From a virus, in the IMG/VR virus record IMGVR_UViG_3300021960_000532, positions 1-23,381 of that record: a stretch of DNA of 23,381 nt; one strand, given 5' to 3'. The translations under genes and the position numbers were made by a program. The notes below the pieces were generated by a model. That model was not told the origin of the DNA and made no database searches. It was given only the letters and a program-made list of their open reading frames with translations. The number at the start of each line of letters is the position of its first letter. The stretch's first letter is position 1. This document shows, in pieces, positions 2,195 through 22,677 of this stretch.

Positions 2195-2601
2195 GTACGT
2201 ACTTTAATGATATGCAAGCTGCACTAGATACGCAACTAAGCACACTATCTGGTGGCTATGACATTGCATATCCCAACATAACCTATAAGCCAGTAGGAAA
2301 CACAACATATTTACGTGCAAGCTTTATACCAGCAGACACATTACAGGTCAGCTTAGGTTCTAATGGCAAAGACGAAACACAAGCAATATACCAAATAGAT
2401 GTAGTAAGTCCAAGGGGTTCTGGTAGGTCAACACTTACAGATAATGTAGCAGACCACTTTAAGCGCGGAACAGTGCTAACTTATAACAATTTGAAATTGC
2501 GAGTAAGGTCGGTTAGTATCGAACCTGCAATAAACGACGGGGCATGGTTTTTCGTTCCAGTTTCCGTATCCATTAACGCATACACAGGAGCAAGAGTATG
2601 A
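2191..2601 (+). CDS. Tail terminator protein, DUF4128-like
   Basis: 136 aa. It follows the gp10-like gene and precedes the tail tube gene, the usual terminator position. The start STYFNDMQAALDTQLSTL is helical. The body holds YLRASFIPADTLQVSLGS and an IYQIDVVSPRGSGRSTL segment before the beta-rich end; this resembles the DUF4128 group of tail terminators. The protein would cap the tail tube and stop polymerisation at the length set by the tape measure. It overlaps its neighbours by 4 bp on each side. Confidence 0.65.
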   Translation: MSTYFNDMQAALDTQLSTLSGGYDIAYPNITYKPVGNTTYLRASFIPADTLQVSLGSNGKDETQAIYQIDVVSPRGSGRSTLTDNVADHFKRGTVLTYNNLKLRVRSVSIEPAINDGAWFFVPVSVSINAYTGARV

Positions 2602-3515
2602 CTATAGCAAACGGAGCACAACATAGCATTGCCTATATTGCGGAAACGACATATGGCACAACCCCATCAACACCATCATTTAAACCCTTTGCGAATACAG
2701 GTACATCACTTGGTATAAGCAAAGATGGCATTGAAAGCGAAAAGCTAAGAGGTGACAGACAAGTAGAAGATTTCAGGCATGGTAACAAGTCAGTTAGTGG
2801 CGATGTAACAGCTGAGCTAGAATATGAAGCATTTGACGATATATTAGAAGCAGTATTATGCGGAACATGGGCAACAGACGTGTTAAAAGCAGGTACAACA
2901 AGACGTTCATTTACTATCGAGCGTAAATTTGCTGATTTAACTGCACCAGAATGGCATAGAAACACAGGTTGTGAGTTTAACGCATTAAGCTTATCTGTAT
3001 CACCGAACGCAATGGTCGAGGCAACTTTTGGTGTTGTAGGGCAGAACTTATCTATCGGAACAACTGCAATAACAGGTTCATCTTATGCAGCCGATAGCAC
3101 TAACAAGCCATTTGATAGCTTCACAGGTTCAATACAGGAAGGTGGCTCAGCAATATCAACAGTGACATCTATCGAGCTAAGCCTAGAGAACGGCATAGAG
3201 CCACTGTTTGCAGTTGGCAGCCAAACCACACAACGACCATCAATCGGTAAGTCACGACTAACTGGTACGCTTACAACATACTTTGAGGATAAAACTTTAT
3301 ATGAGAAGTTCCTTAATGAAACCGAAAGCACAATACAGTTAGTGTTAACAGACCTTGATGGCAACTCATACACAATCGACTTGCCACGTGTTAAGTACAA
3401 TAGTGGACAGCCAGATGTATCAGGCGAAGGTGCTATTACAGTTAGCATGGAGTTTGTAGCATTATATAACACCAGCGATGCAACACAGATTAAAATAACT
3501 AGGGCTGATGCTTAA
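2598..3515 (+). CDS. Major tail tube protein
   Basis: 305 aa. The start reads ANGAQHSIAYIAETTYGTTP, a form often seen in siphovirus tube proteins. LRGDRQVEDFRHGNKSVSGD and repeated beta-strand segments follow, ending in a strand-rich ISVSMEF-type C terminus (GEGAITVSMEFVALYN). The length and the position between terminator and tail chaperone fit the main tube subunit, which forms hexameric rings around the tape measure. It has a good ribosome site (AGGAGCAAG) even though its ATG overlaps the previous gene, as expected for the most abundant tail protein. Its stop overlaps the next ATG by one base. Confidence 0.75.
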   Translation: MTIANGAQHSIAYIAETTYGTTPSTPSFKPFANTGTSLGISKDGIESEKLRGDRQVEDFRHGNKSVSGDVTAELEYEAFDDILEAVLCGTWATDVLKAGTTRRSFTIERKFADLTAPEWHRNTGCEFNALSLSVSPNAMVEATFGVVGQNLSIGTTAITGSSYAADSTNKPFDSFTGSIQEGGSAISTVTSIELSLENGIEPLFAVGSQTTQRPSIGKSRLTGTLTTYFEDKTLYEKFLNETESTIQLVLTDLDGNSYTIDLPRVKYNSGQPDVSGEGAITVSMEFVALYNTSDATQIKITRADA

Positions 3516-3916
3516 TGGAATTTAATCAACTTGCGACAGTAGGTCGACATGAGAACGGGGCTGAGTGTAATATACTTAACCCCGTTACCAATGAGCCAAC
3601 AGACTTTTATGTTAAGGTGTGTGGCGCAGACAGTAAGGTGTGGAGAGCTGCAAAGAAAAAGCAAACCAATGCAATAATCACAGCACGCTCTAATCTAAAA
3701 GATGGTCAGACTTATGAGGACATTGATATAGACTTTGATGCACTAGATATACAAGCACTGGTAGATGCTACGCTAGACTGGAGAGGACTAGCTAATAAAG
3801 GTAAAGAAGTTAAGTTCACAGCTGAGGCAGCTAAAGACCTTTATGAGCAAGCACCAGATGTAGTAAAACAGCTGTTATACTTTATAGGTAATGGCGAAAA
3901 TTTTATGCACGACTGA
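3515..3916 (+). CDS. Tail assembly chaperone, short form (gpG-like)
   Basis: 133 aa ending DFM-type at a TGA (3914-3916). It lies between the tail tube and the tape measure, where siphoviruses encode the tail assembly chaperone pair. The N-terminal half is beta-rich (EFNQLATVGRHENGAECN); the C-terminal half is helical (FTAEAAKDLYEQAPDVVKQL). A perfect slippery heptamer sits 9 bases before the stop, and ribosomes shifting -1 there continue into the GT extension. By analogy with lambda G/GT, the short form would coat the tape measure and the long form would recruit tube subunits. No recognisable Shine-Dalgarno is present, and the start is coupled to the tube gene stop. Confidence 0.8.
   Translation: MEFNQLATVGRHENGAECNILNPVTNEPTDFYVKVCGADSKVWRAAKKKQTNAIITARSNLKDGQTYEDIDIDFDALDIQALVDATLDWRGLANKGKEVKFTAEAAKDLYEQAPDVVKQLLYFIGNGENFMHD
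3898..3904 (+). promoter_or_regulatory. -1 ribosomal frameshift site (A AAT TTT)
   Basis: In the chaperone frame the codons read GAA AAT TTT ATG, so the heptamer is X-XXY-YYZ with X = A and Y = T. It allows both tRNAs to re-pair one base back on AAA and TTT. The -1 frame has a TAA at 3889-3891 and is then open to 4245, and the 0 frame stops at 3914. The shift therefore has to occur in a short window, 3892-3916, and this heptamer is the only canonical slippery site I see there. Confidence 0.85.
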
Positions 3917-4248
3917 TTGACGACTTTGTAGCCTATGGTCGATGGGCTAACTATATTAGGCAAAAGCCAAAAGGTTCAGACGTCAGTCGATACGATACAT
4001 ATAAGCAGGTAGAGAAAAGCACTGGTAAAACACCAGCTGAACTACGTAAAGCACCAGAGCTTAGAAGTGAACTTGTTAGCTTATGGACTTTATTTTGCGA
4101 AATGCGTGAACCTAGTTATAATGAACTTGCTTCATACGTAACAATGACAGGCATTTCATTAAGCCCTTGGGAAGTCGAAGCTATTATGAAGTTGACCCGA
4201 CATATGGGTGAGGAGTTAAATAAATGGCCACCGAACAAGCAGTATTAG
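3904..4248 (+). CDS. Frameshift extension of tail assembly chaperone (T part of gpGT)
   Basis: These 114 codons are read only after a -1 shift at 3898-3904, giving a fusion of 130 + 114 = 244 aa. The added part begins YARLIDDFVAYGRWANYIRQ and ends near RHMGEELNKWPPNKQY at TAG 4246-4248, overlapping the tape measure start by 25 bp. There is no ATG or GTG near its 5' end (the first in-frame ATG is about 59 codons in), so it cannot be a normal separate gene. The helical, charged sequence and its place just before the tape measure match the T domain of lambda-type chaperones. It would be missed by any ORF caller that requires a start codon. Confidence 0.85.
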   Translation, partial: YARLIDDFVAYGRWANYIRQKPKGSDVSRYDTYKQVEKSTGKTPAELRKAPELRSELVSLWTLFCEMREPSYNELASYVTMTGISLSPWEVEAIMKLTRHMGEELNKWPPNKQY

Positions 4249-6677
4249 TATTTAAGGTCGACACAAAAGACATTGGTAAGGCGCAAAAGCAGCTTGAAGC
4301 TATGGGCTTGTCAGCTATCAAGACGAAATCCAAGATAAAAGAGTTTGCAAAAGATACTGGTAAAGGTGGTAAAGACGTTAGTGGCTTTGGTCGTAAAGCT
4401 GGTATGGCTGGCGTACAGTTTGAGCAGTTAGCAGGTCAAATAGCTATGGGACAGAACCCAATGCGTGCTGTTGGCGTACAAGCAGCCGACTTAGGCTTTG
4501 TGTTAGGTACACCATTACTTGGTGCTGTTGTCGGTATATCAGCTGCCATTGCGTCAGTTCTTATACCTATGTTGTCAAACGCAGCTATGAACACTGAGAA
4601 GCTTACTAAGCTGAATGAAAAGTTAGCAGAGAGCTTTAATATAGGAAAAGATGGTACAGTTACTTTATCAAAGTCATTGCAAACACTTATAGATAATTTT
4701 GGCTCAGTTGGTGAACTAGCATTAGAATTACAAAAAGTTGATATAGCTAAAGGTGCAAGAGATAGTATTGCTGCACTTAATAAAGAATTTGTTAAGGTAA
4801 TGCCTAATCAGTCACAAATAGCTATCGAGCTAGGTAATCAATATAGTGTATTAGGGACAAAGATAAGCAGCGCGACAGAAAAAGAAGAAGCATACAATGT
4901 TGTCTTAGGTAAAAACGCTGAAGCATACGGCATTGAAAAAGAGCAACTAGAAACATTAATACCATTAATTAAATCACTAGAGGACGGAAAAGAGGGTGCA
5001 GCTGATAAAGCCACTGCCTATATAAGAAGTTTGGTTGAGCTTGAAGGTAAAGACATAACTAATAAATTTAGACGCTTTGCAGATGCAATACTCATGGCAG
5101 CAACTAACCAAGCAACTTTAAATAAGTTGAACGATGCAGCTGTTACTGGTGCTACAAACCAAACTAATGAAATTGCAGACTTAATCAGTAAGCTAAAAGA
5201 ACGAGCAGACCTAGAGGAAGGACTTATTACTAGAACTGATGTGCTTACAAAGAAATATGACGCGGCAACTGCAGCCATAATAATAGAACAAGAGACAAGA
5301 ATTAAGAACGCTAAGACACAAGAGGCAAATGATAAGCGTGTTGAGCAAACACAAAAAGCAGCTAACAAGCGATTTGAAGCTAGATTAGCTAAGCTAAGAA
5401 TTGAAGGTGAGCTATTAGGTGGAAACGAAAATGCAGCTATAGAGCTTGATAATACATTAACCCCATTACAGAAAAGGCAGCTACAGGCACAAATAGACAT
5501 CAACAATGAACTAAGAGAGACAGCTAGGATAGAGGCAGAACGTAAAGACAGCATAAAGGCTATGCTTGAAAGCGCACGCAAGGCGCTTGCCGACCAAGCA
5601 GCTGCTGATAAAAAAGCAGCAGAAGAAAAAGATGCTAGAGTTAAGAGTGAGATGCAAAAGACTAAAGATGCTGAGACATTAGCTGCTGAACAATATTTAG
5701 CAAACTTAGATTTCTTAGCCACTTTAGATGTTAAGTATGCAGAACAAAAGAAGGTACTAGGTCAAAAATACTTAGATGATTACAATGCAGCAGTCGCACA
5801 AGCACAAGCACAAGAGGCTGCGTTAAAACAAGAACAAATTGTAGAGGAGACAGCAGCAAACATAGAAAGGCTATCAGTCAATGAAGAATATTGGGCGTTA
5901 TGGTTAGCTAATGCACAGAACGCAATGACAACATTTAATGATATTACAGCATCAGGCGTAAATGCATTTCAGAGTGGTTTTGGCTCAGCGTTTGAGCAGG
6001 TAATTATGGACGGAGAAGGCATCAAAGGTGTTGTCTCAGGTATATTTGAGGACATGGCTAGAGCGCAGATAGCAGCACTAGGTCAGATGGCAGCCGAGAG
6101 GCTTACACTATTCTTGATGGATAAAGCATTAGGTAAGTCAGCAGCAGCGTCAGGTGCAGCAGCAATGATAGCAAACGCAACAGCTGCACAAGCAATGGCT
6201 GGAATACAAGCATATGCGTCAGCTGCAGCAGTGCCCCTAACAGGCTATCTAGCAGCACCAGCTGCGTTAACAGCTGCGTTAACAGCCACTGCACCACTAC
6301 TAGCTACAGTTGCAACAGCATCGACAAGTGCAACAGGCGCAAGAGCATTAGGTGGACAAGTACGAGGTGGAGAAAGCTACTTAGTCGGTGAACGTGGCGC
6401 AGAGATATTAACTATGCCTAGTAATACAATGGGGCGCATCACACCAAATCATATGATGGGTGGTGGTCAGTTGAATGTTACTGTTGAGAATTATGGTAGT
6501 AGCAATATAAGCGTGCAAAAGATTAGCGAAACAGATGTACGTATAATAGCAAGAGAAGTAGCAAGCCAAACAGTACAGCGTGAAGCACCAAGAGTTATTG
6601 CAACTGATATATCTAATCCTAATGGCAGGGTTAGCAAAACATTAGCAAATAAAACAAGCACACAGCGAAGGCGATAA
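4224..6677 (+). CDS. Tail tape measure protein
   Basis: 817 aa, one of the three largest genes and directly after the chaperone. A hydrophobic Gly/Ala segment lies at residues 88-118. A long charged coiled-coil follows (about 320-560, rich in Lys, Glu and Ala), then an Ala-rich hydrophobic stretch (about 625-705). The C-terminal GGQVRGGESYLVGERGAEIL motif from residue 710 is a hallmark of tape measure proteins. The protein sets tail length and is expelled at infection; at about 0.15 nm per residue, as in lambda, the tail would be about 120 nm (inference). A strong GGTGAGGAG sequence precedes the ATG. A perfect 12-bp tandem duplication (6261-6284) lies in the Ala-rich part. Confidence 0.92.
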   Translation: MATEQAVLVFKVDTKDIGKAQKQLEAMGLSAIKTKSKIKEFAKDTGKGGKDVSGFGRKAGMAGVQFEQLAGQIAMGQNPMRAVGVQAADLGFVLGTPLLGAVVGISAAIASVLIPMLSNAAMNTEKLTKLNEKLAESFNIGKDGTVTLSKSLQTLIDNFGSVGELALELQKVDIAKGARDSIAALNKEFVKVMPNQSQIAIELGNQYSVLGTKISSATEKEEAYNVVLGKNAEAYGIEKEQLETLIPLIKSLEDGKEGAADKATAYIRSLVELEGKDITNKFRRFADAILMAATNQATLNKLNDAAVTGATNQTNEIADLISKLKERADLEEGLITRTDVLTKKYDAATAAIIIEQETRIKNAKTQEANDKRVEQTQKAANKRFEARLAKLRIEGELLGGNENAAIELDNTLTPLQKRQLQAQIDINNELRETARIEAERKDSIKAMLESARKALADQAAADKKAAEEKDARVKSEMQKTKDAETLAAEQYLANLDFLATLDVKYAEQKKVLGQKYLDDYNAAVAQAQAQEAALKQEQIVEETAANIERLSVNEEYWALWLANAQNAMTTFNDITASGVNAFQSGFGSAFEQVIMDGEGIKGVVSGIFEDMARAQIAALGQMAAERLTLFLMDKALGKSAAASGAAAMIANATAAQAMAGIQAYASAAAVPLTGYLAAPAALTAALTATAPLLATVATASTSATGARALGGQVRGGESYLVGERGAEILTMPSNTMGRITPNHMMGGGQLNVTVENYGSSNISVQKISETDVRIIAREVASQTVQREAPRVIATDISNPNGRVSKTLANKTSTQRRR

Positions 6678-12020: not shown

Positions 12021-15000
12021 ATGGCAGAATTACCACTAGACCAAGCCGTTCCAAGGTTTAAGGCGAACGAGGATAGATTAGACACGTTTGTCAACTCAGC
12101 TACAGGTTATACAACATCTGGTGGTGTTTCAGTACAATCAATACAAGAATTTCTAGCAAGCATTGGTAGCAACGGCATAGATTTTGTCGATAATGCTAAA
12201 GCTAGATTTGGCACAGGTAATGACCTAGAAATATATCACAGTGGTTCAGGTAGTTTTATCAGAGATACAGGCACAGGCGATTTAACTATTGATGGCAGTG
12301 CAATAATTATACAGACTGCTAGTGCAGAGCGTGTAAGCGTAACCGCATCAGGCATAGACGTTACTGGCACAGTTGAGTTTGATGGACTATCAGGAACAGG
12401 TGCAGTTACAATTACTGACATAGCCGACGAAGATAACATGGCTTCAAATAGTGCTACAAAACTAGCTACACAACAATCAATTAAAGCATATGTAGATACA
12501 CAAGTTGCAACAATACCAACAGGAGATATTACTTCTGTAGTCGCAGGTACAGGTTTAACAGGTGGTGGCACTACTGGTGACGTAACATTAAACATAGGTG
12601 CAGGTACAGGCATAACAGTAAATGCAGATGATATTGCTATTGATGCTACTGTTGCAACACTTACAGGCACACAAACATTTACTAATAAAACACTTACAAG
12701 TGCAGTTTTAAATACATCTGTTTCTGGTACTGCGGTGCTTGATGAAGATGACATGACATCAAATAGTGCAACTAAGTTAGCCACACAACAATCTATAAAA
12801 GCTTATGTAGATGCTAACGTAGGTGGCGGTGGCTTGCCTACAACTGGTGGCACAATGACAGGCGATATACTTTTCAATGATGGTATTAAAGCTAAGTATG
12901 GTACTAGCTCAGATTTACAAATATTCCACGATGGTAGTGACTCTTATATTACAGAGAGTGGCACAGGAATATTATTTCTACGCACAAATCAATTACAAAT
13001 ACAAAGTGATGACGGATTAGAAACTTACGCAACATTTACTGATAATGGTGCTGTTAATTTATATCATAATAATTCGGCAAAACTAGCTACAACATCTTCT
13101 GGTATAGGTGTAACAGGTGATATAGATATTTCTACGTCAGGCGCAAGTAATACATCTAAGGGACTTGCTATTGCTACTAGCGGTACTAATTTCGAAAGTG
13201 ATGGCGGTATAATAAGTATTGACCACGCGGCAAGTGGCGCTGTTACAGGTGGCTATTTTAGTAAGTATAGTGCGGGTGGTACATTACGTCATTCAGTTAA
13301 AGGTGATGGTACTGGTTACTTTGCGGAACGCTTGGGCATAGGTCACACGTCACCAGTTGCTAAAATGGCAATACTAGGTTCATCTAACTCAACTATAACT
13401 GAAGCTAATTCAAACTTATGTGTTGAAGGTAGTGGCGGTAATGGTTTGTTATTTGGTACATTAAGTACTACTGGATTTAAAAGCTATATACAATCAGGCT
13501 TTGTATCAAACTTATCTTTAGCTACTTATGATTTATTATTAAATCCTGAGGGCGGTAACGTAGGTATAGGTACTACAAGTCCTAACCATGAGCTACATAT
13601 TGAAAGCACATCACCGACTATACGTTTAGTTGATACTGATGGAAATAATACACTAGATATTGGACAAAGCGCTTCGTCTTGTTATATAGACTTTGACAAC
13701 AATGTAAGATTTAGAAACTTAGCTAATGCTGAAAGACTTAGAATTGATTCAGGTGGTATAGATGTAACAGGTGCTACTAACACTACAGGTACTAGTAACA
13801 CTAGACAATGGTCGGTTGGTACAGCAGGTGCTAAAATGGGTATATATGCCCTTGATAACAGCACTATGTATATGCGCGTTGAAAGTGGTACTTCAAGTAA
13901 TCTACAGTTCGGTACATACGATAACATTCCAATCTACACTATCACTAATAATACTGTTAGAACAACTCTATTAGGTAATGGTAATTTTGGCGTTGGAGTT
14001 ACGGCTCCTGCTTATAAGATTGATGTACGTGGTGATGCTAACACCGATGTTGCCATACAAGTCAAAGCAACAGGTACAGGTGATGTAGATGCAGATTTAC
14101 GATTAGATGCCGCTGATACAGGTGAGTCTGTATTAAGAATGATGCGCAATGGTGTAACTAGAGCTAGGGTAGAATTTACAAGCAATGAACTTAATATAAC
14201 AACTGATGAGTCTGGTAGTCATATTGATATGCAACCCGATGGCACAAGAGTTATGCGTTTTGAAAGTGATAACATTGAAGCAGTTAAGGTCATAACTTGT
14301 GAGCGCAGTGGCGTATCTGAATCAACAATGATAAGTTTTGAAAATGATAACGGCCAAGTTGGTAAAATTACTAGCAGTGGACTTGGCACAGTGTATGGAA
14401 CCACATCAGACTACAGACTTAAAACTGATGCACAGCCTATGTTAAATAGTATTGACCGAATAAAAACACTCAACCCAATTAACTTTGAGTGGATTTCAGA
14501 TGGCAGTAGAGTAGATGGATTTTTAGCACATGAATTGCAATCTATTGTGCCAGAGGCTGTCATAGGCACGCACGATGGTATGCGTGACCAACAGTATGTT
14601 GAGAGCGAAGCAACAGGTGACATATACACACCTGCTGTTGAAGCAACGTATGAGACAATACAAGTTGAACTTACACCTGCTGTTGAGGCCGTTTATGAAA
14701 CAGTAACAGTAGAGATTAGCCCTGCCGTAGAAGCTACATATGACGAAGATGGCAATGAACTTACCCCTGCCATTGAAGCAGTAACAGAAGAACAAGAGCA
14801 ACTTGTTACACCTGCCGTTGACGCTACATATGAGGAACAACAACAAGAGCTAACATCTGCTATTGATGAGGTTATACATAGCTCAGATGTTGAGAAGCCA
14901 GACGAACTTGAAGAAGGTCAAACATGGCGTGAAACTACAGAAAGAATAATGGCAACACGGCAAGTGCCAGACTATCAGAATATAGACCAAAGTAAGCTTG

Positions 15001-15083
15001 TGCCGCTACTTACATCAGCACTACAAGATGCTATTGCTAAGATTGAAGCATTAGAAACACGCCTAGAAGCGCTAGAGGCATAA
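12021..15083 (+). CDS. Tail fibre with C-terminal S74 self-cleaving chaperone
   Basis: 1020 aa. An N-terminal attachment region (LPLDQAVPRFKANEDRLDTF) is followed by beta-strand modules seen twice: ARFGTGNDLEIYHSGS near residue 57 and AKYGTSSDLQIFHDGS near 291. A 25-residue segment occurs twice (SNSATKLATQQSIKAYVD). The C terminus is an S74 domain: TTSDYRLK with Ser796 and Lys801 spaced as in endosialidase-type chaperones, then FLAHELQSIVPEAV and the final IDQSKLVPLLTSALQDAI coil. Cleavage before or after Ser796 would free about 225 aa after trimer folding. Residues 869-958 are six 15-residue repeats inserted in this domain. A good AGGAG lies upstream. Confidence 0.88.
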   Translation: MAELPLDQAVPRFKANEDRLDTFVNSATGYTTSGGVSVQSIQEFLASIGSNGIDFVDNAKARFGTGNDLEIYHSGSGSFIRDTGTGDLTIDGSAIIIQTASAERVSVTASGIDVTGTVEFDGLSGTGAVTITDIADEDNMASNSATKLATQQSIKAYVDTQVATIPTGDITSVVAGTGLTGGGTTGDVTLNIGAGTGITVNADDIAIDATVATLTGTQTFTNKTLTSAVLNTSVSGTAVLDEDDMTSNSATKLATQQSIKAYVDANVGGGGLPTTGGTMTGDILFNDGIKAKYGTSSDLQIFHDGSDSYITESGTGILFLRTNQLQIQSDDGLETYATFTDNGAVNLYHNNSAKLATTSSGIGVTGDIDISTSGASNTSKGLAIATSGTNFESDGGIISIDHAASGAVTGGYFSKYSAGGTLRHSVKGDGTGYFAERLGIGHTSPVAKMAILGSSNSTITEANSNLCVEGSGGNGLLFGTLSTTGFKSYIQSGFVSNLSLATYDLLLNPEGGNVGIGTTSPNHELHIESTSPTIRLVDTDGNNTLDIGQSASSCYIDFDNNVRFRNLANAERLRIDSGGIDVTGATNTTGTSNTRQWSVGTAGAKMGIYALDNSTMYMRVESGTSSNLQFGTYDNIPIYTITNNTVRTTLLGNGNFGVGVTAPAYKIDVRGDANTDVAIQVKATGTGDVDADLRLDAADTGESVLRMMRNGVTRARVEFTSNELNITTDESGSHIDMQPDGTRVMRFESDNIEAVKVITCERSGVSESTMISFENDNGQVGKITSSGLGTVYGTTSDYRLKTDAQPMLNSIDRIKTLNPINFEWISDGSRVDGFLAHELQSIVPEAVIGTHDGMRDQQYVESEATGDIYTPAVEATYETIQVELTPAVEAVYETVTVEISPAVEATYDEDGNELTPAIEAVTEEQEQLVTPAVDATYEEQQQELTSAIDEVIHSSDVEKPDELEEGQTWRETTERIMATRQVPDYQNIDQSKLVPLLTSALQDAIAKIEALETRLEALEA
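14625..14894 (+). repeat. Six tandem 45-bp (15-residue) repeats in the S74 region
   Basis: In frame, the units begin YTPAVEATYE, LTPAVEAVYE, ISPAVEATYD, LTPAIEAVTE, VTPAVDATYE and LTSAIDEVIH, each exactly 15 codons. The consensus is about LTPAVEATYE followed by five acidic or polar residues. The DNA has diverged at third positions, so the array is old or selected at protein level. The sixth unit is degenerate. The array lies between the conserved N-terminal half and the C-terminal helix of the chaperone. Confidence 0.9.
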
Positions 15084-15500: not shown

Positions 15501-15733
15501 ATGTATTATTAACTGGTGCAAGTATTATGTTCGGTGCAATGCTTAGGACAATATGGACAGGTGTTAAAGATTTAGAGCAATCCGACAAAGAAATTAATGA
15601 TAAACTTACTAAAATAGAGGTTACTGTTGCAGGTAATTACATAAGACGTGCAGAGTTTAATGATATGGTTCAAAGGTTATTTACTAAACTAGATGCAATA
15701 GACCAGAAACTAGACGCAAAGGTTGATAAGTGA
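15473..15733 (+). CDS. Small membrane-anchored coiled-coil protein in lysis group
   Basis: 86 aa. Residues about 8-30 (VNVLLTGASIMFGAMLRTIW) form one likely membrane segment. Heptad-rich helix follows (KDLEQSDKEINDKLTKIEV), then NYIRRAEFNDMVQRLF and a C-terminal DAIDQKLDAKVDK. The order TM, coiled coil, NYxxRxEF, KLDxKxDK recurs in short phage proteins next to holins, though I know of no proven function. It could be a holin partner or inner-membrane spanin-like component. A second in-frame ATG at 15482 is an alternative start. The stop overlaps the GTG of the holin gene. Confidence 0.65.
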   Translation: MAIMEQNLVNVLLTGASIMFGAMLRTIWTGVKDLEQSDKEINDKLTKIEVTVAGNYIRRAEFNDMVQRLFTKLDAIDQKLDAKVDK

Positions 15734-16146
15734 GCTTAGGTATTACAGAACTTATTGCAGGTATATTTAAGCCAGCTACGGAACTAATAGACAACTTGCA
15801 CACAAGCAAAGAAGAAAAGCTTGAACAGAAGCGTCTGTTATTGGAAGTACAAGGTCGCGCTATGGATAGGGTACATGAGTATAACACAGAGTTGCTCATG
15901 GGTCAGGCTAAAATAGTAAACAGCGAAGCAAGCTCAGAGCATTGGTTAACAGCTAACTGGAGGCCATTAGTTATGCTTATTTTTACAGGTTTAGTTGTAG
16001 CACGTTTTCTAGGATTTGAGGCTGAAGGCATGACTGAAAAAGAATATCAAAGCTTGTGGAATTTAATCACGCTAGGTGTAGGTGGATATATTGGTGGTAG
16101 GTCAGTAGAGAAAGCCATAAAAACATACAAAGGCACAGGCGAGTAA
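15730..16146 (+). CDS. Holin, 3TM family type
   Basis: 138 aa from a GTG start that overlaps the upstream TGA (GTGA). The region IVNSEASSEHWLTANWRPLVML followed by two hydrophobic helices (about 78-95 and 108-126) is typical of the 3TM holin family; the first helix (residues 1-22) is amphipathic, followed by a charged coiled helix (23-60). Holins make the inner-membrane holes that release endolysin. The next gene is the endolysin, with stop and start overlapping (TAATG). The assignment is by pattern and context. Confidence 0.78.
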   Translation: MSLGITELIAGIFKPATELIDNLHTSKEEKLEQKRLLLEVQGRAMDRVHEYNTELLMGQAKIVNSEASSEHWLTANWRPLVMLIFTGLVVARFLGFEAEGMTEKEYQSLWNLITLGVGGYIGGRSVEKAIKTYKGTGE

Positions 16147-16559
16147 TGCCATTTAGATTTAGTAAAAGCAGTAGCAATCGTTTGCTAGGTGTTGACCCAG
16201 ATATATTTAGAGTAGCTCGGCTTGCTATACAAATAACAAAAATAGACTTTGGCATACCTTTACATGGTGGTTTGCGCACACAAGCTGAACAATATGAGCT
16301 ATTTACAGCAGGACTATCTAAATGTGATGGGTATGAAAAGATAAGCGCACACCAGACAGGCGAAGCATTAGATGTATATGCCTATGTTGATGGTAAAGCG
16401 TCTTGGAAAGAAGAACATTTAGCAATGGTTGCAACGGCAATGCTACAATCAGCAAGCCAATTAAGTATTGGATTAGAGTGGGGTGGATTATGGAAATCAT
16501 TTATTGATATGCCACACTTCCAGTTACAAAAAAAGAGACCACAATTAAGCGGTCTCTAA
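16146..16559 (+). CDS. Endolysin, L-alanyl-D-glutamate peptidase type (M15/VanY)
   Basis: 137 aa. Zinc ligands of the M15 family are visible: SAHQTGEALDVYAY gives His69 and Asp76 (HxxxxxxD), and DMPHFQL gives His124. The substrate-binding GGLRTQAEQ segment (41-49) and the EWGGLWKSF block (111-119) also match T5-type endolysins. The enzyme cuts the peptide side chain of peptidoglycan at the end of infection. No signal peptide or SAR helix is seen, so release should depend on the holin just upstream. The last codons form one arm of a hairpin that looks like a terminator for the opposite strand. Confidence 0.9.
   Translation: MPFRFSKSSSNRLLGVDPDIFRVARLAIQITKIDFGIPLHGGLRTQAEQYELFTAGLSKCDGYEKISAHQTGEALDVYAYVDGKASWKEEHLAMVATAMLQSASQLSIGLEWGGLWKSFIDMPHFQLQKKRPQLSGL
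16534..16557 (-). terminator. Minus-strand intrinsic terminator inside the endolysin 3' end
   Basis: AGAGACC (16534-16540) and GGTCTCT (16551-16557) form a perfect 7-bp stem with a 10-base loop. On the minus strand the stem is followed by an unbroken T run (complement of the A run just before 16534), the classic intrinsic form. On the + strand there is no T run after it. The nearest minus-strand transcripts are those of the operon ending at 17769, about 1.2 kb upstream in that direction. Confidence 0.6.
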
Positions 16560-16630: not shown

Positions 16631-17812
16631 ATGGGCATTACAAACAAAAGTAAATTAAATTGGAATGAGTTAGAAGAATATTGCAACAATCAACGTGAGC
16701 TAGATATAATAAAAGCCCGCGCACACTATGACAATGTTGACGAAACAGCCGCACATTTTGGTATATCGAGCCGAGCGATTTATACGATTACAAGTGGCGT
16801 AAAAGCAAGAGCCGCACGCAAAGGTCATGCGCCAGAACATGATATGACTGCTACTGCACCAGATGGCTTCCAAGTCAAAGGTGTTAGCACTTATTACAAT
16901 GCAAGCGGACAAAAAACAGGCCAATGGGTTAAGACTATTGGCGACAAAGAGCGTCAACATGAGATTATGTTGCAGGCGATTGAAGAAACGCATAAAAACT
17001 ATAAGCCATTTAAGCCAAGCTCTAAAGTAAAGCACACAGATAAAGACTTATTATCATTAATTACGATAACGGACTTTCACTTAGGTATGTATGCATGGGA
17101 AGCTGAAACTGGTGATGACTGGGACGTAAACATTTCTAAACGTGTTTTTCTTAATGCTATAGCAGATATGATAGAAGCCGCACCAAAAGCTCATACAGGC
17201 TTTCTTTGCCAGCTAGGTGATTTCCTACACTTCGACGGCATTACGGCTGTTACTCCAATGTCAGGCCACATATTAGACGCTGATACGCGCTATAGTAAGC
17301 TGGTAGGGTTGACTATTGAGATAATGACACAAGCCGTTCATATGATGCTTAAAAAGTTTGGCAAGGTTGTAGTAGTACAGGCCGAAGGCAACCACGATAT
17401 GTCAGGTTCAATATGGCTAAGAAAGCACATTAAATATGTATTTAAAGATGACAAAAGAGTAGAAGTCATTGACAATGAATTCCCATACTATGCTTATTTA
17501 CATGGTGAGATATTACTAGGGTTTCATCATGGGCACAAAAAGAAAATGGCACAACTGCCAAAGTTGTTTGCGAGTGAGCCACGTTTTCGTAAACTATGGG
17601 GACAGTCAACACAAGCTTATATACATACTGGACATATGCACCACGAACGTGTTATTGAGGACGCTGGCGCTGTCTGTGAAATGCACCCGACATTGTCAAC
17701 ACGAGATTCCTACAGCACCGCTGGCGGCTGGACGTCAGCAAGAGGTGCTAAAGTAATTACATATCATTCTAAACTTGGCGAGGTACACCGAACAACTGTG
17801 AGGCCACGTTAG
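16631..17812 (+). CDS. HTH plus calcineurin-like metallophosphoesterase
   Basis: 393 aa. Residues about 10-62 form a helix-turn-helix region (DETAAHFGISSRAIYTITSG). From about 143 the metallophosphoesterase motifs occur in order: TDFH (D148, H150), LGDF (D197), GNHD (254-256), FHHGH (300-302) and GHMHH (334-338). These bind two metal ions and hydrolyse phosphodiester or phosphomonoester bonds; the substrate is unknown. HTH-linked phosphoesterases of this kind occur in other tailed phages and may act on DNA. The gene is separated from the lysis genes by terminator-like hairpins. Its 3' end overlaps the opposing operon by 44 bp. No strong ribosome site is visible. Confidence 0.82.
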   Translation: MGITNKSKLNWNELEEYCNNQRELDIIKARAHYDNVDETAAHFGISSRAIYTITSGVKARAARKGHAPEHDMTATAPDGFQVKGVSTYYNASGQKTGQWVKTIGDKERQHEIMLQAIEETHKNYKPFKPSSKVKHTDKDLLSLITITDFHLGMYAWEAETGDDWDVNISKRVFLNAIADMIEAAPKAHTGFLCQLGDFLHFDGITAVTPMSGHILDADTRYSKLVGLTIEIMTQAVHMMLKKFGKVVVVQAEGNHDMSGSIWLRKHIKYVFKDDKRVEVIDNEFPYYAYLHGEILLGFHHGHKKKMAQLPKLFASEPRFRKLWGQSTQAYIHTGHMHHERVIEDAGAVCEMHPTLSTRDSYSTAGGWTSARGAKVITYHSKLGEVHRTTVRPR

Positions 17813-18071
17813 CGGCTTGCTGATATTGCAACTCTAATTTATCACAAATAGCATAAAACTCAGTTGCTTTCTCAGCACCATAGCAAGTATATGATGACCA
17901 GTTTAATGTTTCAATAAAGTTAAACTTATTAGTGTAGACATCACGTCTAAATAGATGAAAGTCATACTTTAAGCAGTCGTCATCTTCGTGGACTAGCTCT
18001 TGATTAAGAAAGTATGTGTCCATATATTCGTCTATGTTGTCTTGCCAGTTCCAACTTTGTATAAAAGCCAT
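17769..18071 (-). CDS. Unknown 100-aa acidic protein, last gene of minus operon
   Basis: I do not recognise this family. The protein is rich in aromatic and acidic residues (WNWQDNIDEYMDTYFLNQ, then HEDDDCLKYDFHLFRRD). No membrane segment or known motif is evident, but there are two Cys (residues 33 and 63). The ATG overlaps the stop of the HNH gene (TAATG) and is preceded by a strong AAGGAGATA, so the start is well supported. The C-terminal 14 codons lie antisense to the phosphoesterase C terminus. Confidence 0.6.
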   Translation of the reverse strand: MAFIQSWNWQDNIDEYMDTYFLNQELVHEDDDCLKYDFHLFRRDVYTNKFNFIETLNWSSYTCYGAEKATEFYAICDKLELQYQQAANVASQLFGVPRQV

Positions 18072-18478
18072 TAGTCTATCTCCTTGATATTTGGTTTGTA
18101 AGTATTGCCAAAGCTTCTTGATTGTATCTTGGTACGACTTTGGATTCGTTGCTTGGGTTTCTGTGACTTCTTAGTCGTTTTTAGTAGCGAACGTAACTTT
18201 TTACGTGCTAGACTATCTGCTTTATCTTTAACTATTGCACACTTAATGCAGGTCAATAAGATATTACGCAATTCGTGTTTTCCACCCATAGAGCGTTGAT
18301 GAATGTGTTCCTCTCGTATATGCCTTGCCTTAAATACTAAAGGCTCTTTACAAGTCGCGCATTTACCATCTTGCTCTATCAATAGTTGACCAAACTGCAT
18401 TTTAGTTAGCGGTTTGAATTTAACATAGTCGGGGTGGTCAGAAAGCTTCATAGTCGCCTCTAAGTGCTTTGCTGACAT
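18071..18478 (-). CDS. HNH-type nuclease protein, possibly degenerate
   Basis: 135 aa. A zinc site is formed by CATC (40, 43) and CIKC (77, 80). Between them EEHIHQRSMGGKHELRNILL carries the H (58), GG and N (72) of the HNH fold. The final His normally seen after the second CxxC (CxxCH) is Ala here, so catalytic activity is uncertain. The basic tail (residues 85-125, many Lys and Arg) should bind nucleic acid. HNH proteins in phages act in packaging, homing or recombination. The start at 18478 overlaps the upstream gene by 41 bp. An alternative ATG at 18451 has a better AGAGG site and gives 126 aa. Confidence 0.75.
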   Translation of the reverse strand: MSAKHLEATMKLSDHPDYVKFKPLTKMQFGQLLIEQDGKCATCKEPLVFKARHIREEHIHQRSMGGKHELRNILLTCIKCAIVKDKADSLARKKLRSLLKTTKKSQKPKQRIQSRTKIQSRSFGNTYKPNIKEID

Positions 18479-18635
18479 CAGCCTTTAATCTTCTTAACCA
18501 TTTATGTTGGTCGCGTGTATCTCCCCTTAATATTGCATTGCGATATTTGTAACGTGAATAATATGGGTGATTTACATAATAAGTTACAATGTTATTTTTG
18601 TCTTTATACTGTTCAATCATTACGCAGACTTTCAT
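18438..18635 (-). CDS. Unknown 65-aa basic protein in minus operon
   Basis: I do not recognise it. The N-terminal part is strand-like (KNNIVTYYVNHPYYSRYKY); the C-terminal part is a basic helix (KWLRRLKADVSKALRGDYEAF). It has many Tyr, Arg and Lys and could bind nucleic acid, but there is no defined motif. It overlaps the HTH gene by 23 bp and the HNH gene by 41 bp. A second in-frame ATG at 18620 would reduce the overlap with the HTH gene to 8 bp and may be the true start. Neither has a clear ribosome site, so coupling is likely. Confidence 0.5.
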   Translation of the reverse strand: MKVCVMIEQYKDKNNIVTYYVNHPYYSRYKYRNAILRGDTRDQHKWLRRLKADVSKALRGDYEAF

Positions 18636-18822
18636 TTAATTCATGTAATATGCTAGGAGTTAAATCATCACCATAAAGATTTATAATTTTAGACCAATGC
18701 TTTTCTGGTATGCCATTATTGACATACCATTTTCTAATTGTTTGCTGTTGCGTTTTACAATGTTGACTTAAAGCAATAGTGCCTCCACATTGTTTTATAA
18801 TTTGTTTTATTGTATATTTCAT
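18613..18822 (-). CDS. Small HTH regulator, YdaS/Cro-like
   Basis: 69 aa. The pattern CGGTIALSQHCKTQQQTIRKWY, followed by GIPEKHWSKI and an LYGDDLTP ending, matches single-domain Cro/YdaS proteins. In these, a Gly-Gly-x-x-Ala-Leu helix leads into a TxQxTIxxW recognition helix, and the domain ends in (I/V)P-x-x and a strand. It would bind operator DNA as a dimer. The ATG is one base past the stop of the 269-aa gene, and its AAGGAG lies within that gene's last codons. The nearby dyad at 19704-19736 is a candidate target; this is inference. Confidence 0.7.
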   Translation of the reverse strand: MKYTIKQIIKQCGGTIALSQHCKTQQQTIRKWYVNNGIPEKHWSKIINLYGDDLTPSILHELNESLRND

Positions 18823-18823
18823 T

Positions 18824-19633
18824 TTACACTCCTTTCATAATTTTTTTGGCGTAATCATCAATATCTTTGTTTTTCATTATTCTGTGTGTGGCTATTATAA
18901 AAAGCCTTTGTTCCCAAGTCATTTCATCAAGCTCCCATTTATATTCAGCCCAATAATCAGCCGCGCAATCTTCATAATTTTCGCTGTATTTACTACAAGC
19001 TTTTGTTATACGTTTATCCTCAAATTCCCATATAGGTTTATGATAATAACGTTTCTCTTGTTTAAAATAACACCAGTCATATTTTTCATCAGAATAAATA
19101 CAAAGAACTTTCGAAACGTTTCGTCGCTTTATTGGTTTATTTATTTCTATATGCTTTGTCGGTATATTTTTATTGGCTTCAATTCGCTTGCGTGATTTTT
19201 CAATATAATTCTTGCTAAAGAAGAATTTGGTAAATCGTAATTCAATGCAAGCGTGTTCTGCATTATGACCATGACCTAATTTTGCACCTGCTAAATGTCC
19301 TGCGTCATGTATTATATTTGCCCAGCCTGTGTCTGGTGAAAGTTTATATATATAATAACCATCTAACTTACTTTTATTATCACGCTTACCAGCGCTACTG
19401 TAATCACTTACAATCCAGCTAAACTTTCTTTTTCTATATGTATAAGTATCATTTATAATTTCATATGGAAATTCTTGATTAAATTCCTTTAGCCAAAATT
19501 GCTTAATACATTGTACTGCTGTTTTGAAATCAGCAGGTTCACTAGGTTCACCAAATCTAATTGTAAAACCATTATCAGTCCAAATTTTATTTGTACGTTC
19601 GTAAACGCCTTTGGCTTCTTGTGATATTCTCAT
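18824..19633 (-). CDS. 269-aa protein with HDxxH metal-site-like motif, unknown function
   Basis: First gene of the minus operon. Residues 104-131 read WANIIHDAGHLAG followed by KLGHGHNAEHACIE, giving His109, Asp110, His113, His121, His123, His127 and Glu131. This is like a zincin helix HExxH with Asp in place of Glu, followed by further ligand candidates. The preceding strand (YYIYKLSP) and the hydrophobic residues around the motif fit a metallopeptidase-like core. From memory, uncharacterised alphaproteobacterial phage proteins share W-x-x-(V/I)-H-D-x-x-H. An HD phosphohydrolase is less likely because no earlier conserved His is seen. The C-terminal part (200-260) is helical and charged. 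The AGGAGAT site and promoter at 19685-19713 support the start. Confidence 0.55.
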   Translation of the reverse strand: MRISQEAKGVYERTNKIWTDNGFTIRFGEPSEPADFKTAVQCIKQFWLKEFNQEFPYEIINDTYTYRKRKFSWIVSDYSSAGKRDNKSKLDGYYIYKLSPDTGWANIIHDAGHLAGAKLGHGHNAEHACIELRFTKFFFSKNYIEKSRKRIEANKNIPTKHIEINKPIKRRNVSKVLCIYSDEKYDWCYFKQEKRYYHKPIWEFEDKRITKACSKYSENYEDCAADYWAEYKWELDEMTWEQRLFIIATHRIMKNKDIDDYAKKIMKGV

Positions 19634-20281: not shown

Positions 20282-20878
20282 ATGCAACATTCAGAATCAA
20301 CAAAAAACATAGCACCCGCGGTTACAGCCGCTAGTAATGCCATTACAGGTGCTAAGAAAGATGGCAAAAACCCACATTACAAATCAACATATGCAACACT
20401 TAGCTCAGTTATTAATGCGGCTAATAAACCACTAGCTGATAATAATTTAAGCATAATGCAAGAGTTAAGTGAAATAACAGACAACCAAATGATTAAAGTT
20501 ACTACACGATTAACACATACGTCTGGTGAATATTATGAATTAGTAACACCAGCACCATTGAAAAATAAAGATATTCATGTGCTTATGTCAACATTCACAT
20601 ATTGTCGTAGAAATGCAATATCAGCAATGCTTAATATGCCTGTTGAAGATGATGATGGAAATAAATCACATGATGCAAAAGCAGAGGAACCTGATTTTGA
20701 TACAGAACCACTAATGAGAAATATATATCAAGCACAAACTGTAGAAGAATTAGATGCAATAGCTAATACTATTAGACATACAGAAATGCCTAGTAAAAGC
20801 AAAGCTACATTGCGTAGTTTATATCTGACAGCGAAAAGAACCATGTTGAATAAAGAAGATAATAATGAAAATACATAA
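20282..20878 (+). CDS. ERF-family single-strand annealing protein
   Basis: 198 aa. The core matches the ERF superfamily: an N-terminal helix (NIAPAVTAASNAI), KNPHYKSTYATLSSVINA (residues 29-46), LTHTSGEYYEL, then a FTYCRRNAISAMLNMPVEDD segment ending in DDDGN. ERF proteins bind ssDNA and anneal complementary strands during phage recombination. The next gene is a YqaJ-type exonuclease and then an SSB, so these three form a recombineering set. The C-terminal tail (about 135-198) is acidic, then helical and basic. The ribosome site is ATAGGAGATTAAA; the 3' end overlaps the exonuclease start by 14 bp. Confidence 0.9.
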   Translation: MQHSESTKNIAPAVTAASNAITGAKKDGKNPHYKSTYATLSSVINAANKPLADNNLSIMQELSEITDNQMIKVTTRLTHTSGEYYELVTPAPLKNKDIHVLMSTFTYCRRNAISAMLNMPVEDDDGNKSHDAKAEEPDFDTEPLMRNIYQAQTVEELDAIANTIRHTEMPSKSKATLRSLYLTAKRTMLNKEDNNENT

Positions 20879-21512
20879 TGTAGAACAAGGTAGCCAAGAA
20901 TGGTTTGAAGCGAGGTGCGGTAATTTTACTGCATCTCGTATTAAAGATATATTAGCTAAAACCAAAAGTGGGTATAGTACATCGCGCAAGAATATGATTG
21001 TTAAATTAGCACTAGAACGCATGACTGGTCATGTCGAACAAAATACATATACTAGCCCTGCTATGCAACGTGGAACAGAGCTAGAAGCTGAAGCAAGAGA
21101 TTGTTACGCATTCGAGTTTGGTTATATAAATGTAAAAGAAATAGGTATGGTAACTCACCCTGACTTTGATTATATTACGTGTTCGCCAGATGGTTTAGTT
21201 GATAATGATGGATTAGTAGAAATTAAATGTCCATCTGCAATGCATAAGCACGTTAGCTATTTACAAGAAAATGCACACGCAGTTGAATATAAAACACAAT
21301 TACAGCATCAATTAATGGTAACTAAAAAAGAATGGGTTGACATAGTATCTTATGACCCACGTTTTCCAGTAGGTTTGCAATTAGCCCGTTGCAGGGTTTT
21401 ACCAGATATAGAATACCAAGAATATATGCTTGAAGAAATACATAGTGCCAACAGTGAGGTTGAAGCATTATTGTTAGAACTTAACCAATTACAAGGAGAT
21501 AAAAATGGTTAA
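20865..21512 (+). CDS. YqaJ-like / lambda-exonuclease-type recombination nuclease
   Basis: 215 aa. The opening QGSQEWFEARCGNFTASRI is a typical YqaJ start. RGTELEAEA (69-77) supplies an acidic residue. The PD-(D/E)xK core reads SPDGLVDNDGLVEIKCP with Asp109, Glu119 and Lys121. A later QLQHQLMVT helix (145-153) fits the family. The enzyme degrades 5' ends of linear duplex DNA to make 3' ssDNA, which the upstream ERF protein would anneal. The ribosome site is a weaker AAGAAGATAATA. It ends 8 bp inside the SSB gene. Confidence 0.9.
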   Translation: MKIHNVEQGSQEWFEARCGNFTASRIKDILAKTKSGYSTSRKNMIVKLALERMTGHVEQNTYTSPAMQRGTELEAEARDCYAFEFGYINVKEIGMVTHPDFDYITCSPDGLVDNDGLVEIKCPSAMHKHVSYLQENAHAVEYKTQLQHQLMVTKKEWVDIVSYDPRFPVGLQLARCRVLPDIEYQEYMLEEIHSANSEVEALLLELNQLQGDKNG

Positions 21513-21921
21513 TAAAGTAATTTTAATAGGGAACATTGGAAGTGAGCCACAGATACGCTCATTTAGTAATGGTAATAAAAACATGAGCTTTTCATTAGCT
21601 ACAAATGAACGTTGGAAAAATAAATCTGGCGAAACCCAAGAAAAAACATATTGGCATAAAATTAGCATATTTAATGAAAATTTAATTAAGTTAATGGAAA
21701 GTTATGCTGGCATGGGTTCAAAAATATATATTGAAGGTAAATTAATAACCAGAAAATATAGTACTGATAGTGGTGATAAATATACAACTGAAATTGTGCT
21801 AGAACGTTATAATGGTGAAATTAAATTACTTGGCAATAATAATAAAGGTACAGGACTAGCAACATTACCTGATAAGCCAATTACAACAGATTATCCACTT
21901 GATGACGATATACCATTTTAA
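21505..21921 (+). CDS. Single-stranded DNA-binding protein
   Basis: 138 aa. The OB fold is evident: NKVILIGNIGSEPQIRSF, a central SFSLATNERWKNKSGE and TYWHKISIF, then YIEGKLITRKY. After a short flexible segment the protein ends DDDIPF, the acidic tip that recruits partner proteins. The linker (about 108-130) is shorter than in E. coli SSB (178 aa). It protects ssDNA in recombination and replication and probably works with the ERF and exonuclease proteins directly upstream. The ribosome site ACAAGGAGATAAAA is strong. Confidence 0.95.
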   Translation: MVNKVILIGNIGSEPQIRSFSNGNKNMSFSLATNERWKNKSGETQEKTYWHKISIFNENLIKLMESYAGMGSKIYIEGKLITRKYSTDSGDKYTTEIVLERYNGEIKLLGNNNKGTGLATLPDKPITTDYPLDDDIPF

Positions 21922-21923
21922 AA

Positions 21924-22337
21924 ATGGGACAATATACAATACAAATTAACAGTGAGGTTGAGAGATTAAAAGCTCTTGACCTTACTAAAAGAGCACCAGC
22001 TGGCACATATATAACTTGGAAACGTGATAAACGCACCACAAATCAAAATAGCTTAATGTGGGCATTATTAACTATAATTAGCAATCAAGTACGTTGGAAT
22101 GGTAATGAATGGCATATAAGTGATATTGGTGGTCGTTATAGTGCAGAAAATTGGAAGCAGGTTTTTGCCTCTAGTTTATACAAAACGCAATTTATGCCAG
22201 ACCTTGATGGCGGTATGATACCATTAAATCCAAGTACAAGCAAAATGACTAAGGAGCAACATAGCGAATTATGTGAATTAATTATAGCGCAAGCCAACAA
22301 CTGGGGTATTAATATAAAAGATATAGAAAGTGAATAA
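21924..22337 (+). CDS. NinB-type recombination protein (lambda Orf family)
   Basis: 137 aa. The motif RTTNQNSLMWALLTIISNQV (residues 37-56) and the later NWKQVFASSLY fit NinB, a recombination mediator that in lambda can replace RecFOR functions. The family pattern R-x-x-x-Q-N-x-x-x-W-x-x-L is present. It follows SSB after 2 bp with no Shine-Dalgarno, so translation is probably coupled. It overlaps the RusA gene by 8 bp. Confidence 0.8.
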   Translation: MGQYTIQINSEVERLKALDLTKRAPAGTYITWKRDKRTTNQNSLMWALLTIISNQVRWNGNEWHISDIGGRYSAENWKQVFASSLYKTQFMPDLDGGMIPLNPSTSKMTKEQHSELCELIIAQANNWGINIKDIESE

Positions 22338-22677
22338 ACTAGTATTACCATTTCCAATTAGCGTTAATGCTATGTATTCAAATCTTGGACGAAGGCGTGT
22401 TAAATCTAAAAGATATAGAATATGGCGTGAAAAAGCAGTTGCAATGTTACAAATACAATATAACCAAAAATTAATAGATTATAATATAAAGTTAGAAATA
22501 GCTTTAAGCCCAAAAGATAAAAGGAAAAGAGATTTAGATAATCATGCTAAGGCAATACAAGATGCATTAACGTCTTTAGTTATTACTGATGATAGTTTAA
22601 TAAAAGAATTATATATGTATTGGTTGCCTAAATCAAAAAATGGATATGCAAATATAATTATAAAAAAATACAAATAG
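22330..22677 (+). CDS. RusA-type Holliday junction resolvase
   Basis: 115 aa from a GTG at 22330 within the end of the NinB gene. Features of the family: a start PFPISVNAMYSNLGRRR, the helix RYRIWREKAV, then KRDLDNHAKAIQDAL with Asp68 and Asp70, and ITDDSLIKEL with Asp87/88. These acidic residues correspond to the catalytic positions of RusA (70, 72 and 91 in the E. coli enzyme). It cuts four-way junctions formed during recombination or replication. The basic N-terminal patch should contact DNA. No own ribosome site is seen. Confidence 0.92.
   Translation: MNKLVLPFPISVNAMYSNLGRRRVKSKRYRIWREKAVAMLQIQYNQKLIDYNIKLEIALSPKDKRKRDLDNHAKAIQDALTSLVITDDSLIKELYMYWLPKSKNGYANIIIKKYK

Follow-up and report, generated by a model that had tools for sequence, protein, structure and literature searches.

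Do the overlapping reading frames between the tail tube and tape measure genes of an uncultivated virus encode a short and a long tail assembly chaperone, made by −1 ribosomal frameshifting, and what in the RNA would promote the slip? The window, the whole 23,381-nucleotide stretch of IMG/VR record IMGVR_UViG_3300021960_000532, carries this gene pair on its plus strand. Frameshifted tail chaperones are textbook for tailed phages, and the pair belongs to that known kind; the addition here is an RNA helix downstream of the slippery site, a feature beyond the original prediction, which covered the heptamer and the frames.

Layout and identity of the gene pair

The zero frame (3515–3916) begins at ATG 3515, encodes a G-like, short tail assembly chaperone of 133 aa (14.9 kDa; relatives 29–96% identical) and matches phrog_313, tail assembly chaperone, with E = 6.9e-12. 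It stops at TGA 3914–3916, and the −1 frame is closed upstream by TAA 3889–3891, both as originally predicted. The −1 frame is then open over 3892–4245, ending at TAG 4246–4248; the predicted extent to 4248 holds, with a count of 118 codons instead of 117, and the predicted overlap is present, with 22 nt ahead of the zero-frame stop instead of about 25. Within it, A_AAT_TTT at 3898–3904 lies exactly in phase, as had been claimed (zero-frame codons AAT 3899 and TTT 3902). Any in-phase X_XXY_YYZ occurs at 15 of 6,160 codon positions in the genes of the window, or a ~1.5% chance per six-codon overlap, and a chance heptamer is untenable because the site is conserved among relatives.

The T-like extension (3904–4248), which ribosomes that have slipped would read in the −1 frame, matches Pfam PF23812 (Phage_TAC_18; E = 1.3e-11), and its dN/dS of ~0.14 and 0.25 against two relatives indicates a protein-coding frame under purifying selection. 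The predicted G-T fusion has 244 aa (27.9 kDa, from sequence), with QLLYFIGNGENFYAR as the predicted tryptic junction peptide in this window. Upstream lies the tail tube gene (2598–3515; PF18906, E = 3.7e-58) and downstream the tape measure gene (4224–6677; phrog_1538, E = 1.3e-48), whose start overlaps the end of the extension. Homology of both parts and this position uphold the predicted chaperone identity.

AlphaFold models are confident for both parts (pLDDT 88–89). The extension model matches the tape measure chaperone of Escherichia phage Seurat (268 aa; BFVD) with E = 1.8e-5 and a query-normalised TM of 0.78, a likeness of predicted fold at 26% sequence identity, and lower-ranked matches are tail assembly chaperones of 9NA, K1H and Loki. 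Neither part had a convincing match among solved structures (PDB) by sequence or fold; a match to YopM (E = 0.0029) was set aside for the short stretch covered. A homologue is present in ~105 named phages, and a protein-level search of genome contigs returned no relatives. On every feature tested, the predicted pair is a clear member of the G/GT-type frameshifted tail assembly chaperones.

Elsewhere in the window are a large tail protein whose C-terminus carries a Peptidase_S74 intramolecular chaperone domain (12021–15083), lysis genes in which a GTA_holin_3TM holin precedes a Peptidase_M15_4 endolysin candidate (15730–16559), and a recombination module of ERF, YqaJ and RusA families (20282–22677). 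A minus-strand block (17769–19633) includes a 269-aa protein with no Pfam match (18824–19633).

Frame switch and slippery site in relatives

Wherever both parts of a relative can be aligned, the reading frame of T is −1 relative to that of G and the join falls at the same codon, which is the frame switch that the original prediction expected of homologues. Tyr1 of the extension is invariant, and protein conservation reaches the slip site. AAT TTT persists in lineages with identity as low as 27% and GC content as high as 0.68, where both codons are rare. AAT is found in 23/23 lineages with N-F at the site (8.7 expected) and TTT in 31/31 (13.0 expected), counts for which the site-locating rule allowed TTC and AAC and favoured T-rich positions, the fixed-position listing being the cleaner evidence. 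Conservation of the AAT wobble base points to the slip itself, because this base is free of −1 coding constraint after the slip; the third T of TTT is a weaker argument, since it doubles as the first position of the −1 codon that follows. Of 23 lineages, 18 have A immediately before AAT although the encoded amino acid varies (GAA, GCA, GGA, GTA, CAA), and the exceptions either keep T_TTT (C_AAT_TTT, G_AAT_TTT, G_GTT_TTT) or use G_GGT_TTT.

Among ten named-phage loci, the heptamer is T_TTT_TTC in eight, T_TTT_TTA in EC151 and A_AAT_TTC in 438212. Phage 438212 (L038), the one relative among named phages in which the G part was found, has its A_AAT_TTC in the same place, a third heptamer type. 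Measurements in E. coli place H_HHU_UUY heptamers among the most efficient and show that the tetramers U_UUU and U_UUY also shift given a stimulator (PMC4066793); the relatives' heptamer set fits these measurements on H_HHU_UUY and U_UUY. A_AAU_UUU is absent from the 21 motifs used for gene search in that survey of shifty heptamers (PMC4066793), so that such families would have been missed. Five loci (L012–L015 and L052) have a non-canonical G_GTT_TTT but share the frame switch, and their helix is very stable (MFE ~−44 kcal/mol); these may rely on A-site slippage plus structure. In ~18% of contigs found by DNA pattern (for example L228–L277), C, G or T precedes AATTTT and the helix is kept; P-site re-pairing would be imperfect there, which suggests that strict tandem slippage is not universal.

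Taken together, the frames, the heptamer, the frame switch in relatives and the homology of both parts point to a G/GT-type pair made by −1 ribosomal frameshifting, which we strongly infer from sequence. As in lambda gpG/gpGT, short and frameshift-extended chaperones are encoded between the major tail protein and tape measure genes, with a −1 slip at the end of G; the likeness is one of arrangement, and lambda differs in using G_GGA_AAG in place of A_AAU_UUU, and a conserved downstream helix is a feature of the present system. DMU1 gpG/gpGT and the pairs of Barton, Donnerlittchen and phiH1 share a homologous T extension, the −1 frame and the gene order but have a T_TTT_TTC heptamer and a longer overlap. 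The DMU1 record annotates gpG plus a joined gpGT, whereas those of Barton, Donnerlittchen, phiH1, Baskent_P4_1, Vibrio phage 1.117.O and R7M give two ORFs, the second with a late start. In the named-phage records L035, L036, L037, L100, L102 and L103 the extension stands as a short separate ORF with a late start and its first part is lost. Truncation at a late start codon is thus frequent in deposited records, which bears out the original expectation that the extension would be lost in automatic annotation.

A covarying helix downstream of the heptamer

Past the heptamer by 5–6 nt, positions 3910–3917 (CGACUGAU) pair with 3982–3989 (GUCAGUCG) in a predicted helix whose 5′ arm holds the zero-frame stop. 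In the window the 5′ arm begins 5 nt after the heptamer; the family consensus arms are 3911–3918 and 3981–3988, and the window is without the outermost consensus pair, having U3918 opposite C3981. The stretch of RNA past the heptamer folds with z = −3.4 in the window, the same outer helix appeared in almost all of 16 folded sequences, and RNAalifold, run on a gapless alignment of 24 sequences, finds this helix alone. Across 23 distinct rows, 97.8% of cells are paired, falling to 2–44% when the partner is slid by 1–3 columns, and cells changed on both sides number 20, compared with 5.6 in shuffles.

Each arm also codes for a conserved peptide (RLI/RLT and VSR), so the null model was one of synonymous codon choice, under which 138 ± 7.7 of 240 pairs are expected (maximum 167 in 2,000 draws) and 235 are observed. 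The pair 3915–3984 joins the wobble bases of a Leu codon (CTG/CTA) and a Val/Ile codon (GTC/GTT/ATC/ATT); among 83 sequences <90% identical, 44 have GC, 36 AU, 2 GU and 1 AC, where 20 AC are expected (Fisher p = 6e-20, a statistic that ignores relatedness). Where 3912 is A and its partner could be C or U, the partner is U in 50/50. Among relatives the stop itself is either TGA or TAA, and the 3′ arm varies in step with it. When the helix-coding columns were left out of the tree, pair 3915–3984 showed 9 changes on one side and 11 on the other, and four supported independent pairs agree at 3.8 of 4 on average with none opposite (sign test p = 0.125, from too few pairs for significance); independent origins of the covariation are therefore only partly resolved. 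As read from these alignments, the putative helix is kept in the wider clade by compensatory changes at codon wobble positions.

Between −60 and +122, we found no other stack combining high pairing with covariation, either as a further helix or as a pseudoknot, and inspection by eye showed no conserved Shine-Dalgarno-like stimulator upstream. No described RNA family in Rfam matched the window at the gathering threshold. Against synonymous-codon shuffles, the whole clade has low folding energies (z of −1.5 to −5.9 in most cases; −0.7 at locus L054), and energies outside it are mostly weaker. A search of the T_TTT_TTC relatives Barton, Donnerlittchen and phiH1 found no comparable helix, the longest arms being 5 bp, and the predicted helix is clade-specific.

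A search of viral contigs by DNA alone, using AATTTTA, five bases, the 5′ arm, 56–68 bases and the 3′ arm and no protein, matched at least 120 stretches, with a loop of exactly 62 nt in 80/80 matches listed. Two further patterns with the loop fixed at 62 nt brought the total to 205 readable loci, and the patterns combined matched more than 200 viral contigs. The chaperone pair is encoded at 205/205 readable loci, and in every one the zero-frame stop occupies an identical position within the 5′ arm. As a control, moving the helix by one base (a four-base spacer) yielded one unrelated match in viral contigs, with a loop of 57. With the spacer likewise one base short, genome contigs gave three matches, which were taken as chance.

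The enclosed stop, present at all 205 loci, also suits a helix that is real and serves another role, tuning termination at that stop, protecting the mRNA or coupling translation to the tape measure gene. We regard such a role as possible but improbable, the helix beginning 5–6 nt after the heptamer and so within the 5–9 nt at which published −1 stimulators lie downstream of the slip site (PMC3777964), with covariation support. The helix is most likely a frameshift stimulator, as judged from its position and conservation. Heptamer plus structure at a fixed short distance is also the arrangement of dnaX and IS3-family −1 signals, from which the present element differs in its putative long-range helix, a loop of ~62 nt and a zero-frame stop in the 5′ arm. 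Hairpins were judged relevant in only one phage cluster of the E. coli motif survey (PMC4066793). We found no description of A_AAU_UUU combined with a covarying, stop-holding helix in the literature searched, most subscription journals being outside its scope.

How the long chaperone would be made

Three other origins of the second product were weighed against a ribosomal slip. Two separate genes, the second frame having its own start or being reached by termination-reinitiation at the zero-frame stop, would find some encouragement in that stop lying only 10 nt past the slip with CTG or ATT codons overlapping it. In relatives, however, CTG becomes CTA or TTG and ATT becomes ATC or ACC, and protein conservation extends up to the slip site. 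The earliest ATG, GTG or TTG of the −1 frame in the window is ATG 4102, 198 nt past the slip, in keeping with the original claim of an extension that has no start codon, and first such codons in relatives are scattered, mostly at +6 to +216 nt. The independent start, which the prediction had named as the contrary outcome, was looked for in related phages and none was consistent; on start positions in the window and relatives it was rejected, and a separate-gene arrangement is very unlikely.

Slippage by the polymerase in place of the ribosome could also yield a shifted product, and long T runs at the site in some relatives (for example L085) would favour it. The window has only A4T4, short of the An n>7 and Tn n>8 quoted for transcriptional realignment (PMC3711429), and transcriptional slippage needs no conserved helix at ribosomal spacing; we hold it to be more improbable still. 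That a lost base, through sequencing error in the short double homopolymer A4T4 or through gene decay, split one chaperone gene is next to impossible and was rejected, since dozens of independent contigs, drawn from different samples and spanning several slippery motifs and GC contents of 0.37–0.68, show the same split, and both frames are under purifying selection.

With a probability of roughly 95%, based on sequence comparison, −1 programmed frameshifting at A_AAT_TTT makes the G and G-T chaperones; the downstream helix would raise the slip rate. The course of events that we infer extends to the slip and how often it happens, to stimulation by the helix and to what the two proteins do. The majority of ribosomes would read G (133 aa) and terminate at 3914, and a minority would slip back one base at A_AAT_TTT and continue into T, giving the 244-aa fusion. 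On slipping, tRNA-Phe would re-pair perfectly with UUU, and tRNA-Asn would move from AAU to AAA with only a wobble mismatch. The helix would stand at the mRNA entrance of the ribosome while AAU and UUU occupy the P and A sites, slowing it and raising −1 slippage, and ribosomes that do not slip would run into the stop codon three codons on, within the 5′ arm of that helix. As in the lambda system, the G part would bind the tape measure protein and the T part would recruit the tail tube subunit (PMC5009743).

Searching for heptamer plus helix recovers, from environmental phage contigs, long chaperones that had been missed. We consider it somewhat more probable than an even chance that tailed phages of a widespread clade, most of them uncultured, share an undescribed RNA element, composed of a slippery site and a covarying long-range helix with the zero-frame stop in its 5′ arm, that would set the ratio of short to long chaperone, the opening of the helix by a slipping or terminating ribosome linking termination to frameshifting. 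In lambda the short:long product ratio is ~30:1 and critical (PMC5009743), and the helix is a candidate stimulator, with strong covariation support, in a system where that ratio is critical.
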